26,548 nucleotides of DNA from a virus. Below are positions 3 through 17,400 of the stretch, one piece after another. The notes below the pieces were generated by a model, which was given only the letters and a program-made list of their open reading frames with translations, did not search any database and was not told the DNA's origin. The DNA is taken from IMG/VR virus record IMGVR_UViG_3300030118_001958, positions 1 through 26,548 of that record; one strand, written 5' to 3'. The stretch's first letter is position 1. Each line of letters opens with the position of its first letter. A program made the translations under genes and the position numbers.

Positions 3-1616
3 TATGGACAATCACCAATAGAAGCAGGTATGAGAGTTCTTACTACTGCAAACGAAGCAGTAGAAACTAATCTTAAATTCTTACACAATCAATCTGCTAG
101 AGGAATGCTTACACCTGACGATGACCAACTGACACCAACCCAAGCACAACAACTTAAAGATGCACTAAGAAGAAACTATCAAGGAAGCAAGTCTGCAAAC
201 GATATTATGATTACTGGTAAGAAGTTCTCGTGGACAAACTTTGGATTATCAACTTCTGACTTGCAACTATTAGAATCATACAATGCAACAATAAAAGATT
301 TGTGTAATCTATATGGTGTACCAGTACAATTATTAAATAATACAGAATCAACCACATACGATAATTATAGGATAGCTAGAAAGGTATTATTTACTAATGC
401 AATCATTCCTGAACTTAATAAGATCAGAGATGAGTTCAATAGATGGCTAGTTCCAATGTATGGCGAGAATCTATACTTTGACTTTGATTATAGTGCGATT
501 CCTGAACTTATGCCTGAGCAACAACAACTGATAGACAATCTATCTAAGAGTTATTGGCTTACAACAAATGAAAAAAGAGAAGCTAGTGGTTATGGTGTAG
601 ATGAAGATAATCCAATTATGAATGAGTATCTAGTTCCAAATCAGTTTGTTCCAATATCTGATTTAGATTTAGGTATATCAGATGACGTTACGTTCCCAGT
701 ACAAGAAGCTGAAGAAGAAGATGATGTTATGACAGAAGATGAGATGGAAGATATGCAAGAGCAAGAAGAAAAGCAGATGACTGCTAGATTGGAAACTGCG
801 TTACGAAATAAAGTAGAAGAACATAACGAAAAGGTCGGTGATGATAAAACAAAAAGAACTACTGTAAGAACATTGTATCAAGTATATAGAAGGGGTGTAG
901 GTGCATATAGAACCAACCCTGCATCTGTACGACCAAACGTAAGAAACGAAGACCAATGGGCTATGGGACGTGTGGGGTCATATTTATTTGCTTTGAGAAA
1001 TGGTAGATTTAGAAGTGGCAAACACGATACTGATTTATTACCATCAGGTCATCCAATGTCTAGCAAAGACGATAAGTCATATCATAATGAGGTTTTTGAT
1101 AATAGAGTTGATGCACAAGAGAGAGCTGAAGCGATTGGTTGTTCTACAACACACACCCACGAAACAGAAGATGGTATGGTATATATGCCTTGTGCAAATA
1201 TGGATGAGTTAGAAGATGCTTTATCTAAGTATAGACACGAAGACGAAGAAGAATACAAACAAGAAACTTATGACGATTATCCCAAATCCGTAAGAGAGAA
1301 CGCAAAGAAAGCACAAGAAATCAATGAATCTTTTAACAATCCTTGTGCTACCTTAGTGGGTAAAAACAGAGCAAACGACCTCATTGCAGGTCGTGGTCTA
1401 TCATTGGAAATCGTAAAGAAAACATTTGCATATCTATCAAGAGCATACGAATATGTTACTGGTGACTACATAGATGAAAAAGATAAACCAATCTGTGGTG
1501 ATATATCTTACTCATTATGGGGTGGTGATAATAAAGTATCTAGGGTTGAAGATGATCCTATGTACAAATGGTGTAAGAGGATCATAGATAAAGCAGAAGA
1601 AGATGCCACTACCTAA
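3..1616 (+). CDS. Portal protein, HK97-type, with long C-terminal extension (5' partial)
   Basis: Portal subunit of the dodecameric DNA-entry ring at the capsid vertex. The frame is open from base 3, before the first ATG at 30, and reads YGQSPIEAG into MRVL, the family's 'YG.SP.E' segment; the true start is therefore off the window. Counting from that ATG, residues 1 to about 215 fit the clip/stem/wing half of an HK97-type portal (VPVQLLNN, then the PELNKIRDEFNRWLVP helix). An acidic Glu/Asp linker covers about 220-255. Residues about 260-528 hold three extra modules: a basic 'LYQVYRRGVGAYRT...QWAMGRVGSYL' module, a 'GCSTTHTHE...VYMPC' module and a 'YPKSVRENAKKA...GKNRANDLIAG...SLWGG' module. 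I recall these from phage head proteins of many kinds; their role is unknown. The gene overlaps the minor head gene by 14 nt. Portal call firm; extension function unknown. Confidence 0.9.
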   Translation, partial: YGQSPIEAGMRVLTTANEAVETNLKFLHNQSARGMLTPDDDQLTPTQAQQLKDALRRNYQGSKSANDIMITGKKFSWTNFGLSTSDLQLLESYNATIKDLCNLYGVPVQLLNNTESTTYDNYRIARKVLFTNAIIPELNKIRDEFNRWLVPMYGENLYFDFDYSAIPELMPEQQQLIDNLSKSYWLTTNEKREASGYGVDEDNPIMNEYLVPNQFVPISDLDLGISDDVTFPVQEAEEEDDVMTEDEMEDMQEQEEKQMTARLETALRNKVEEHNEKVGDDKTKRTTVRTLYQVYRRGVGAYRTNPASVRPNVRNEDQWAMGRVGSYLFALRNGRFRSGKHDTDLLPSGHPMSSKDDKSYHNEVFDNRVDAQERAEAIGCSTTHTHETEDGMVYMPCANMDELEDALSKYRHEDEEEYKQETYDDYPKSVRENAKKAQEINESFNNPCATLVGKNRANDLIAGRGLSLEIVKKTFAYLSRAYEYVTGDYIDEKDKPICGDISYSLWGGDNKVSRVEDDPMYKWCKRIIDKAEEDATT

Positions 1617-7024: not shown

Positions 7025-7040
7025 ATCAAAAAAAAATATT

Positions 7041-14355: not shown

Positions 14356-14778
14356 ATGCCTAGCACAGGACTTATGAACGGAACACTTCTTGTACTTCAA
14401 ATTAGTACAGATGGTAGTTCATTTACAAATCTCGGACATTCGACATCATCCAGTTTATCATTCAATTTAGATACGCCTGATGCGACCTCAAAAGATAGTG
14501 GTGGTTACAGAGAGGTGATCGCAGGTGCAAGATCAATCGACATTAGTTTTGATTCTTTTGTTGCCTATGATGATACTGTAGATGTGGATACTATGATAGG
14601 ACACGCAAATAATAGAACAAAAATTCACGCAAGATTTGGTACTGCCGTAAGTGGTGATACTACTTATGCAGTTCAAGGATTTATAAGTTCTATTGATTAC
14701 ACGGCAGATGCAGAAGCACCTATTACTTTCTCAGGTACTTTTACTTCTACTGGTGCAGTTTCTATAGGTACTAACTAA
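14356..14778 (+). CDS. Major tail (tube) protein, TP901-1-like
   Basis: 140 residues, beta-rich. Shows the tail-tube outline: 'NGTLLVLQISTDGSSFTNLGHSTSSSLSFNLDTPD' (about 8-42), 'TSKDSGGYREVIAGARSIDISFDSFV' (about 44-70), and the end 'GFISSIDYTADAEAPITFSGTFTSTGAV'. This is the TP901-1 major tail protein family pattern ('L......T.e..d.T.kds.gw.e...g..s..is..g'). It is followed at once by G and GT assembly chaperones and the tape measure, the invariant siphovirus order. Its own upstream promoter fits the high expression a tube protein needs. Confidence 0.88.
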   Translation: MPSTGLMNGTLLVLQISTDGSSFTNLGHSTSSSLSFNLDTPDATSKDSGGYREVIAGARSIDISFDSFVAYDDTVDVDTMIGHANNRTKIHARFGTAVSGDTTYAVQGFISSIDYTADAEAPITFSGTFTSTGAVSIGTN

Positions 14779-14817: not shown

Positions 14818-15192
14818 ATGAACAGTAAAAGAGGTTACATAAAAATAGAGATTGGAGGGAAAGAAAGAACCCTCCACTTCTCTATGAATTTTTGGTGTCA
14901 CTTTACAGAAACTCTCGGTATCGGTCTGAATGATCTCGAAAAATACTTCACAGCAGAAAACCTTAATATATCATCAATAAGAGCATTGATATATTCAGGT
15001 CTTATTGCTTACGATCAAGAAGAAAAGAATCCTATTGATTATACCATTTATGACGTTGGTTCTTGGTTAGAAGACTTCGGCGCAGAAGAACTTCAAAAGG
15101 TAATGGTTGCACTTACTGAATCTAGGATACTTGGCAACGATCTTAATATGGGAATACCAAGAGTATCTAAGGAGGAAGTAAAAAAAAAGTAG
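14818..15192 (+). CDS. Tail assembly chaperone G (zero-frame product)
   Basis: 124 residues, small and mostly helical: 'IKIEIGGKERTLHFSMNFWCHFTETLGIGLNDLEKYF' (about 8-45) matches the outline of G-type tail chaperones of Gram-positive and Bacteroidetes siphophages. It lies directly between tail tube and tape measure. It ends in GTA AAA AAA AAG TAG, and the -1 frame continues into the T domain (see the GT entry). G coats the tape measure during tail assembly in lambda-like systems; that role is inferred here. The gene start at 14818 has the usual A/T leader with a near-match to the -7 box (TATATTTT, 14786-14793). Confidence 0.85.
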   Translation: MNSKRGYIKIEIGGKERTLHFSMNFWCHFTETLGIGLNDLEKYFTAENLNISSIRALIYSGLIAYDQEEKNPIDYTIYDVGSWLEDFGAEELQKVMVALTESRILGNDLNMGIPRVSKEEVKKK

Positions 15193-15536
15193 ATACTAAT
15201 ATTTGGGAAGACATCTTAGATTTTTACATTGGTCAATGTGGAATCCATCCTGATACATTTTGGAAGAATACGTTTGCAGAAAATACTAGAATGTCTGAAG
15301 CGTTTCAGATACATCAGAACTTAGAATGGGAAAGACTGCGTTATATATCAGCTATGCTTATCAACGTAAACGCAACCAAAGCATCACAAAGAATACAACC
15401 TAATAAACTATTTAAACTACCACAAGATAACGCAGTTAAAAAGAAAGTCTCTAAACCGTTAAGCAAAGAAGAATTAGATAACGTTTTAAAGGACTGGGAT
15501 AAGACGATGACTGAAGGTAAAATATCTAAGATGTAA
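14818..15536 (+). CDS. Tail assembly chaperone GT (-1 frameshift fusion)
   Basis: Programmed -1 frameshift product of about 239 residues: the 124 G residues, then reading resumes at base 15189 (GTA GAT ACT AAT...) giving VDTNIWEDILDFYIGQCGIH and on to the stop at 15534-15536. The -1 frame is closed by TAA at 15168-15170, so the shift must occur in about 20 nt, which contain A_AAA_AAG (15183-15189). The T part (115 residues) holds 'AFQIHQNLEWERLRYISAMLINVNA' and a lysine-rich linker, fitting T domains that bind the tape measure. An ATG at 15291 is in the same frame, but starting there would discard the conserved-looking first 34 residues. Confidence 0.88.
15169..15189 (+). other. Programmed -1 frameshift signal: SD-like sequence plus slippery A_AAA_AAG
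   Basis: AAGGAGG (15169-15175) lies 7 nt before the in-frame heptamer A_AAA_AAG (15183-15189), which is followed directly by the zero-frame UAG. The layout equals that of the E. coli dnaX signal, with an internal SD-like stimulator upstream and a slippery heptamer. No obvious downstream stem was found. Confidence 0.88.
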
Positions 15537-15567: not shown

Positions 15568-17400
15568 ATGGCAAGAGAAAGATTACTTTTTGAATTTGAT
15601 GGTGATGCTAGTAAGTTTAAACAAGCTGTCAAGCAAAGTGAAAAAAGCGTAAGTGGTTTTAGTTCTAATCTAGCAAAGGTCGGTGGAGTTATAGCAGGGG
15701 TTTTCGCAGTAGATAAAATAATGGAGTTTGGTAGTGGTGTAATAGAAACTACTGCTACTTTTCAAAGGTTTGAATCTGTATTAACAAATACTTTAGGAAG
15801 CACTTCTGAAGCACAAAGAGCTTTAGATAGGATCACAGACTTTGCATCAAAGACACCATTTAGTGTTTCAGAGTTGACAGATAGTTTTGTACGTCTTGCA
15901 AATCAAGGCTTCAAACCTACATCAGAGGAGATGAGGAAACTTGGTGATCTAGCATCATCTACTGGTAAAGAATTTGTAATGCTAACAGAAGCAATAATTG
16001 ATGCACAAGTTGGTGAGTTTGAGAGATTAAAAGAGTTTGGTATTCGTGCTAGTAAACAAGGGGATCAGGTTACGTTTACATTTAAGAACGTAAAGACACA
16101 AGTTGATTTTACATCTGATGCAATACAAAACTATATACTTTCACTTGGTGATCTTAAAGGTGTATCAGGTGCAATGGTTGGTATATCAAACACTTTGGGT
16201 GGACAAATTTCGAATTTAGGTGATTCATTTGATAAGATGAAGGATACCATTGGTGATGCCTTAATGCCAGTATTAACATCTGTAATAAACAAGTTCAAAG
16301 GATTATTTGAAATGATAACGGATTTACTTAATCCTAATCAGGCGTTAATAGACGATTTTAAAGAAGCAAAAGATGCAGTAGATAATTTAGAAGAAGCAAG
16401 TTTTGCATTATCGGAAACACAAAGAAAATTAGTTGAAGTTACCAATGAAAGAAAAAGACAAAGACTAGCAGAACTTGAAAATCAAATATCAAAAGAAACT
16501 GAAAACTTATCATCTAAAATAGAAAGACAAGGTGAAGTTTTAGATATAGAAAACCAAAAACTTAAAAAATTAAGTGACCTATTGGTTGAATTAGATGGAA
16601 ACCAAAATACTACAGCAAAAAATTTAGAATTTCAAACTGATAGATTTTTAGAACAGAATGAAGTTGTTAGAGAAGCACAGAAAGAATTTGATAATTTAAA
16701 CAAAGAATTATCTGAATTTAATAGAAAGGTTCAAGAGATAAAAACACCTACACAAGAATTATCAAAAACCACACAACAAATAACCTTAGATAGCACTAAC
16801 TATAGTAATAGTTTAAAAAAGGAAACAGTACCCCTTACTACTCAGCTTTCAGAATCCTTAAATGTTGCAAATTTAAAATATAGAGAAATGTTGCCTGTAG
16901 TAGAAGATACTGCAAAAACTCAGCAACAATTTGCAATGGCAACCAACATTGTAACTTCAGGAATGAATTTAATGTTTGATGCACTTTCTAATCCTGATGC
17001 TTTTGATTCCTTCTTAAAATCAGTAAAGCAAATCATAGTACAACTTTTAAAACAACTTGCAATAATGGTTGCTATCGCAGGAGTTATGGCTTTGGTTAGT
17101 GGTGGATCAATGTCATTTGGTAAAGCATTTAAAAAATTATTAGGAATTGGTGGAGGTGGAGGATCAGGTGGTGGTCTTGGAGGAGTTCTTGGTTTTGCTG
17201 AAGGTGGTATTGTAACAAAACCAGTTATGGGTATGATTGGAGAAGCAGGACAATCGGAAGCAGTTATACCATTAAACAGATTACCTCAAATGATTGGTAA
17301 TATAGGTGGTAATCAGAAAGGTGAATTTACACTTAGAGGACAAGACTTAATACTAGCACTTGAAAGAGCAGGTGATTTCAGAGCAAGAATAACTGGATAG
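15568..17400 (+). CDS. Tail tape measure protein
   Basis: 610 residues. Residues about 1-250 match the tape-measure N-terminal domain (ATFQRFESVLTNTLGS, then ITDFASKTPFSVSELTDSFV, then DAQVGEFERLKEFGIRASKQ). Residues about 265-440 are charged, low-complexity coiled coil. A hydrophobic segment near 495-515 (AIMVAIAGVMALVSGG) is followed by a glycine run and the common C-terminal motif 'FAEGGIVTKPVMGMIGEAGQSEAVIPL' (543-568). Using the general rule of about 1.5 angstrom per residue, the tail would be roughly 90 nm, an estimate only. It determines tail length and is ejected during DNA entry. Located after the G/GT chaperones, as expected. Confidence 0.92.
   Translation: MARERLLFEFDGDASKFKQAVKQSEKSVSGFSSNLAKVGGVIAGVFAVDKIMEFGSGVIETTATFQRFESVLTNTLGSTSEAQRALDRITDFASKTPFSVSELTDSFVRLANQGFKPTSEEMRKLGDLASSTGKEFVMLTEAIIDAQVGEFERLKEFGIRASKQGDQVTFTFKNVKTQVDFTSDAIQNYILSLGDLKGVSGAMVGISNTLGGQISNLGDSFDKMKDTIGDALMPVLTSVINKFKGLFEMITDLLNPNQALIDDFKEAKDAVDNLEEASFALSETQRKLVEVTNERKRQRLAELENQISKETENLSSKIERQGEVLDIENQKLKKLSDLLVELDGNQNTTAKNLEFQTDRFLEQNEVVREAQKEFDNLNKELSEFNRKVQEIKTPTQELSKTTQQITLDSTNYSNSLKKETVPLTTQLSESLNVANLKYREMLPVVEDTAKTQQQFAMATNIVTSGMNLMFDALSNPDAFDSFLKSVKQIIVQLLKQLAIMVAIAGVMALVSGGSMSFGKAFKKLLGIGGGGGSGGGLGGVLGFAEGGIVTKPVMGMIGEAGQSEAVIPLNRLPQMIGNIGGNQKGEFTLRGQDLILALERAGDFRARITG

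Follow-up and report, generated by a model that had tools for sequence, protein, structure and literature searches.

A conserved −1 frame switch between phage tail genes G and T and an unconserved Shine-Dalgarno-like element beside it

Joining of the phage tail genes G and T by a frameshift is a textbook case (PMC5009743), and for the frameshift in tail assembly chaperone genes of dsDNA phages PMC10885494 cites Xu, Hendrix and Duda (2004). Tail-chaperone frameshifting reached 6–7% in reporter tests (PMC3711429), and in lambda a ratio of only about 30:1 is needed (PMC5009743). In Bacteroidia, a lineage with an occluded anti-Shine-Dalgarno (anti-SD) sequence, prfB carries an SD-assisted +1 frameshift. 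The site was present in 523 of 726 genomes, the F. johnsoniae sequence reads AGGAGGUAUCUUUGAC, and the authors suggested that the anti-SD is able to leave its pocket during a long pause (PMC8710568). Runs of nine A's are also sites of transcriptional slippage, as in Thermus dnaX and in IS elements (PMC1088944).

We analysed a stretch of 26,548 bases from a virus record, the phage being described as marine; "the window" denotes this whole stretch. An initial annotation had proposed that a −1 frameshift in its tail chaperone genes is driven by an SD-like element, and that the anti-SD is therefore available during elongation or exposed by a phage factor. The window holds an ordinary tail-gene frameshift, and what is mildly interesting is a family-wide split between stem-assisted sites and bare A runs.

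The G/T overlap and its conservation

To describe the junction, we re-checked all coordinates (Table 1). The frame limits, the stop codon, the A_AAA_AAG heptamer within the overlap and the AAGGAGG ending 7 nt upstream of it were all located as the initial annotation had placed them. The −1 frame opens after TAA at 15168–15170, and the zero-frame codons at the junction read AAG GAG GAA GTA AAA AAA AAG TAG. The A9 run includes a second in-phase heptamer, A_AAA_AAA (15180–15186), and the only other plus-strand A9 in the window is intergenic, at 7028. A search of Rfam returned no family at the gathering score.

Table 1. Features of the tail region of the window
Feature	Coordinates	Strand	Evidence
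Major tail protein gene, upstream neighbour	14356..14778	+	phrog_1407, E 7e-26
G, putative tail assembly chaperone, zero frame, 124 aa	14818..15192	+	phrog_2115 tail, E 6e-13
SD-like AAGGAGG (codons AAG GAG G..), probably an incidental synonymous variant	15169..15175	+	among relatives, shared with L018 alone; p = 0.095 relative to synonymous codons
T, predicted −1 frame extension of G	15171..15536	+	phrog_16333, E 6e-8; −1 placement in 142/142 distinct junctions
A9 run, sole feature common to the stem-less cassette type	15180..15188	+	
Candidate slippery heptamer A_AAA_AAG, in phase	15183..15189	+	
Zero-frame stop UAG, immediately 3' of the slippery codons	15190..15192	+	
Tape measure protein gene, downstream neighbour	15568..17400	+	phrog_26804 / 5062 / 1716, E to 2e-57

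When joined at the heptamer, G and T formed a coherent fusion of 124 + 115 = 239 residues, in agreement with the earlier reading of two overlapping frames that encode a product of about 239 residues. The order of major tail protein, G, T and tape measure corresponds to where G and GT classically lie in lambda. Among solved structures, the AlphaFold model of G matched the HK97 tail assembly chaperone 2ob9 best, though weakly (Z 3.6 over 85 residues). Besides gene order, the locus shares with lambda G/GT the −1 direction, a slip near the end of G, fusion to the T domain and the class of heptamer; it differs in having an A9 run that ends in AAG, and its sisters have a long-range 3' stem as well. 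Taken by gene order and protein matches, the G/T overlap is probably a lambda-type tail assembly chaperone cassette, a known kind of phage −1 frame switch.

Homologues collected from IMG/VR and three GTDB contigs provided 286 usable junctions, 142 of which were distinct. T lay in the −1 frame in all 142, running for at least 80 codons in 141 of them and for 78 in the other, and in the +1 frame in none (0/142). Retention of the −1 T frame in 142 distinct junctions means that the frame switch is conserved far beyond chance, which bears out the proposal of a programmed −1 switch giving a G-T fusion. Of the 142 junctions, 131 contained a standard heptamer (A_AAA_AAN or G_GGA_AAN) in phase, and a subclade of ten had GGCAAAG or GGTAAAG (A_AAG) in its place. 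Within the window's own clade, the in-phase heptamer was invariant, with adjacent codons drifting. The frame switch is real and conserved; that shifting takes place, and at what level, is inferred.

T is sometimes listed separately by annotators, as with gp086 of Cellulophaga phage phi10:1, and could be imagined as a gene with its own start, or the overlap as a sequencing or assembly indel. Both are extremely improbable: the earliest ATG, GTG or TTG in the −1 frame is at 15291, downstream of the conserved YIGQxGI region with which T begins, T is therefore not a gene of its own, and an identical −1 overlap recurred across 142 distinct junctions drawn from numerous metagenomes. In the phi10:1 record (NC_021802), only T is annotated, and G (L298 2492–2866) is left unannotated.

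The SD-like element upstream of the heptamer

As the initial annotation had stated, gene starts in the window lack SD sequences. All scored starts but one paired with the anti-SD at −3.9 kcal/mol or weaker, the remaining one at −5.8 kcal/mol; pairing at the frameshift site was −11.1 kcal/mol. This strong pairing potential, at a site in a genome whose starts have none, speaks for stimulation of the shift by SD–anti-SD pairing at AAGGAGG during elongation, with the anti-SD free or exposed by a phage factor. So do the precedent of the F. johnsoniae prfB +1 site, which has a perfect AGGAGG (PMC8710568), the partial AAGGA retained in the closest relatives, and the occurrence of AAGGAGA or AGGGAGA in a separate clade (L117–L131).

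By contrast, the complete motif was not conserved. Nearly all relatives at 94–100% protein identity had AAGGAAG or AAGGAAA, and AAGGAGG recurred only in L018. Nothing SD-like was present upstream of the heptamer in the 75%-identity clade, and more distant relatives had AAAGATC, AAGAATC, AAAGACG and similar sequences at that position. Because AAGGAGG is missing from nearly all relatives, it is probably not the driver of the switch. Co-conservation of the SD with the heptamer, which the driving role would predict, was not seen in the alignment of related phages: the heptamer was kept and the SD-like bases varied freely, an outcome that the initial annotation had itself listed as counting against its proposal. 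In a tree built from the region without the SD site, the window and L018 belonged to different subclades, both of them surrounded by sequences with GAA. We considered whether GAG had arisen twice through selection for an SD and rejected this reading, since Glu wobble flips were equally common at other sites in G.

The element is also unexceptional by composition. The window contains five copies of AGGAGG where 4.9 are expected, and the peptide KEE combined with the genome's codon use gives AAG-GAG-G with a probability of about 0.06. We compared anti-SD pairing in the 22 nt upstream with synonymous resampling at 131 distinct junctions. The mean was −3.0 kcal/mol, compared with −3.4 by resampling; a single junction out of 131 had p < 0.05, and GGGAAAG cassettes had less anti-SD pairing than their synonymous codons predict. 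In clade L117–L131, where the SD-like motif lies 5' of the A run, pairing was about −9 kcal/mol (p about 0.2–0.3). No gene for bS21, a candidate phage factor for exposing the anti-SD, was found in the record, which may be incomplete. With its bases varying among relatives and no pairing above synonymous chance, the SD-like element did not hold up as the driver of the frameshift, and SD-stimulated shifting is unlikely here. AAGGAGG appears to be a private synonymous variant, at most a minor modulator in one phage.

The parallel drawn with E. coli dnaX stands as far as A_AAA_AAG with an SD-like sequence upstream, in this one phage, and is otherwise loose: the window's spacing is 7 nt, whereas the SD of dnaX precedes its heptamer by about 10 nt, the window lacks a 3' hairpin, its SD is unconserved, and its fusion is an extension rather than a truncation. 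Bacteroidia prfB likewise has an SD-like element inside a coding region in an anti-SD-occluded lineage, but it shifts +1 instead of −1, its SD is adjacent to the P codon, and its site is widespread in the class, whereas the window's SD is private. The further claim that the anti-SD is available in elongation loses its premise in this locus, and the idea had already been published from prfB (PMC8710568). This removes one proposed example of Bacteroidetes ribosomes using an SD during elongation; the window offers no independent support for such use, and prfB stays the reference case. How the tail chaperone ratio is set without an SD becomes a testable question.

Cassette types and the agent of slippage

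The homologous G-T switches form a large comparative set with two main cassettes, a stem-assisted heptamer (GGGAAAG with a covarying 3' stem) and a bare A9–A10 run with neither stem nor SD. In type I, G_GGA_AAG, also lambda's own slippery site, is followed 4–6 nt on by a 5' stem arm, and the 3' arm lies 22–63 nt further; the arms are GCCAACTTGATT / GGTCAGGTTGGC or, alternatively, GCCGTCAAAGA / TTTTTGGCGGC. The stem scored above dinucleotide shuffles (p ≤ 0.05) in 23 out of 31 non-redundant GGGAAAG/C relatives. Its arms paired at 91% of positions, compared with at most 52% when slid, with compensatory change at three pairs, and a second group with a stem paired at 93%. Examples are L053 1074–1166, L048 2113–2205 and L142 1842–1934, among others, with two 3' arms that are clade-specific; we found no published description of this stem. 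Judged by a stem 4–6 nt from the heptamer, these cassettes look plainly ribosomal.

Type II has GGCAAAG with the type I stem at 5 nt, and an A_AAG shift site of this kind has been reported for IS1222. The subclade without a standard heptamer (L270, L276, L281 and L297 junctions) carries GGCAAAG or GGTAAAG with the stem at 5 nt, which suggests a shift on the A_AAG tetramer.

Type III, which includes the window, has an A9–A10 run without SD excess or stem. A 3' stem reached p ≤ 0.05 in 1 out of 20 A-run relatives (L058), and the window gave no sign of a 3' stem or hairpin (stem p = 0.63, structure z +0.23). One stem-less relative, L069, had A7 only. All 16 divergent type III loci examined had at least nine A's at the junction; as these loci were chosen for having the run, the informative figure is that no such run occurred in the 37.7 kb that their remaining ORFs span, against 2.6 expected by codon shuffling.

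The G-T switch in the window is probably made by ribosomal slippage on the A run. Most ribosomes would read G through to the UAG at 15190, and a minority would slip −1 at the lysine codons AAA AAA AAG through tandem re-pairing of tRNA-Lys on A_AAA_AAA or A_AAA_AAG. The 239-residue GT fusion would then be made in the small amounts needed for loading the major tail protein onto the tape measure, and the extended A run may be sufficient by itself for this shifting. That the ribosome is the agent, rather than RNA polymerase, we infer from the strict −1 phasing, the AAG ending kept in the window's clade and the ribosomal sister cassettes.

It is also possible, if somewhat unlikely, that RNA polymerase slips on the A9 and that one extra A in the transcript puts T in frame with G for ordinary translation. 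A run of at least nine always holds an in-phase A_AAA_AAA, so the heptamer alone is no proof of ribosomal slippage in type III. Run length is the single feature shared by the stem-less cassettes (9–10 A's in 16/16 loci), whereas a heptamer needs only 6–7. The base 3' of the run varies, and several runs lack the AAG ending (AAA TAA, ACA, ACT, AAC), which polymerase slippage explains equally well. Conservation of a 9A run in homologues is a published criterion for purposeful slippage, and the conserved A9–A10 joining two ORFs with no detectable stimulators resembles the transcriptional sites of Thermus dnaX and IS elements (PMC1088944). The window's family differs from those sites in its strict −1 phasing: slippage in both directions would tolerate changes of length, yet T was never found in +1. 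Moreover, the ribosomal optimum AAG is retained in the window's clade, the sister cassettes are ribosomal, and 0 against 2.6 is a weak depletion. We therefore favour ribosomal slippage, as roughly twice as likely as polymerase slippage.

Cellulophaga phages showed a different pattern. Their G-T junctions had A9 with T in +1 (phi12:1, 12:3, 18:1 and 18:2), A10 with T in −1 (phi17:1) and A8 with T in +1 (phi10:1), the runs lying at L299 12502, L301 3139, L302 3630, L303 505, L304 917 and L298 2853, so that near-identical phages differ in the frame relation of G and T. Between phi12:1/18:1 and phi17:1 the run is kept and the frame flipped. Either the frame relation is immaterial, as polymerase slippage would make it, or the A9/A10 difference is a homopolymer sequencing error. 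A search for environmental copies of the phi12:1-type junction, to test A9 against A10, returned the same isolates only.

About as tentative as polymerase slippage in the window itself is the idea that, within the family, whose members are marine and SD-less, the switch has moved between ribosomal slippage (GGGAAAG with a stem) and polymerase slippage (bare A9–A10, as in the window). If so, some phages would control a homologous morphogenetic ratio during translation and their sisters during transcription, and polymerase-type cassettes would tolerate A9/A10 frame flips like those in the Cellulophaga phages.

Host assignment and the portal gene

T had no match among cultured phages and the major tail protein had one weak match, so the host was read from portal and tape-measure matches together with start-site features. 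The portal and tape-measure matches were to Cellulophaga and Flavobacterium phages, and the relatives' starts were SD-less with A at minus 3; these features point to a Bacteroidetes host. A contig scan gave only three phage-like contigs, which were binned in unrelated MAGs and thus named no host.

In the portal ORF of the window (30–1616), residues 251–347 shared about 66% identity with a segment found in proteins from Roseobacter phages CRP-821 to 831 that are annotated as "major capsid protein". The shared segment lies beyond the ORF's Pfam portal match and is possibly a mobile inserted domain.
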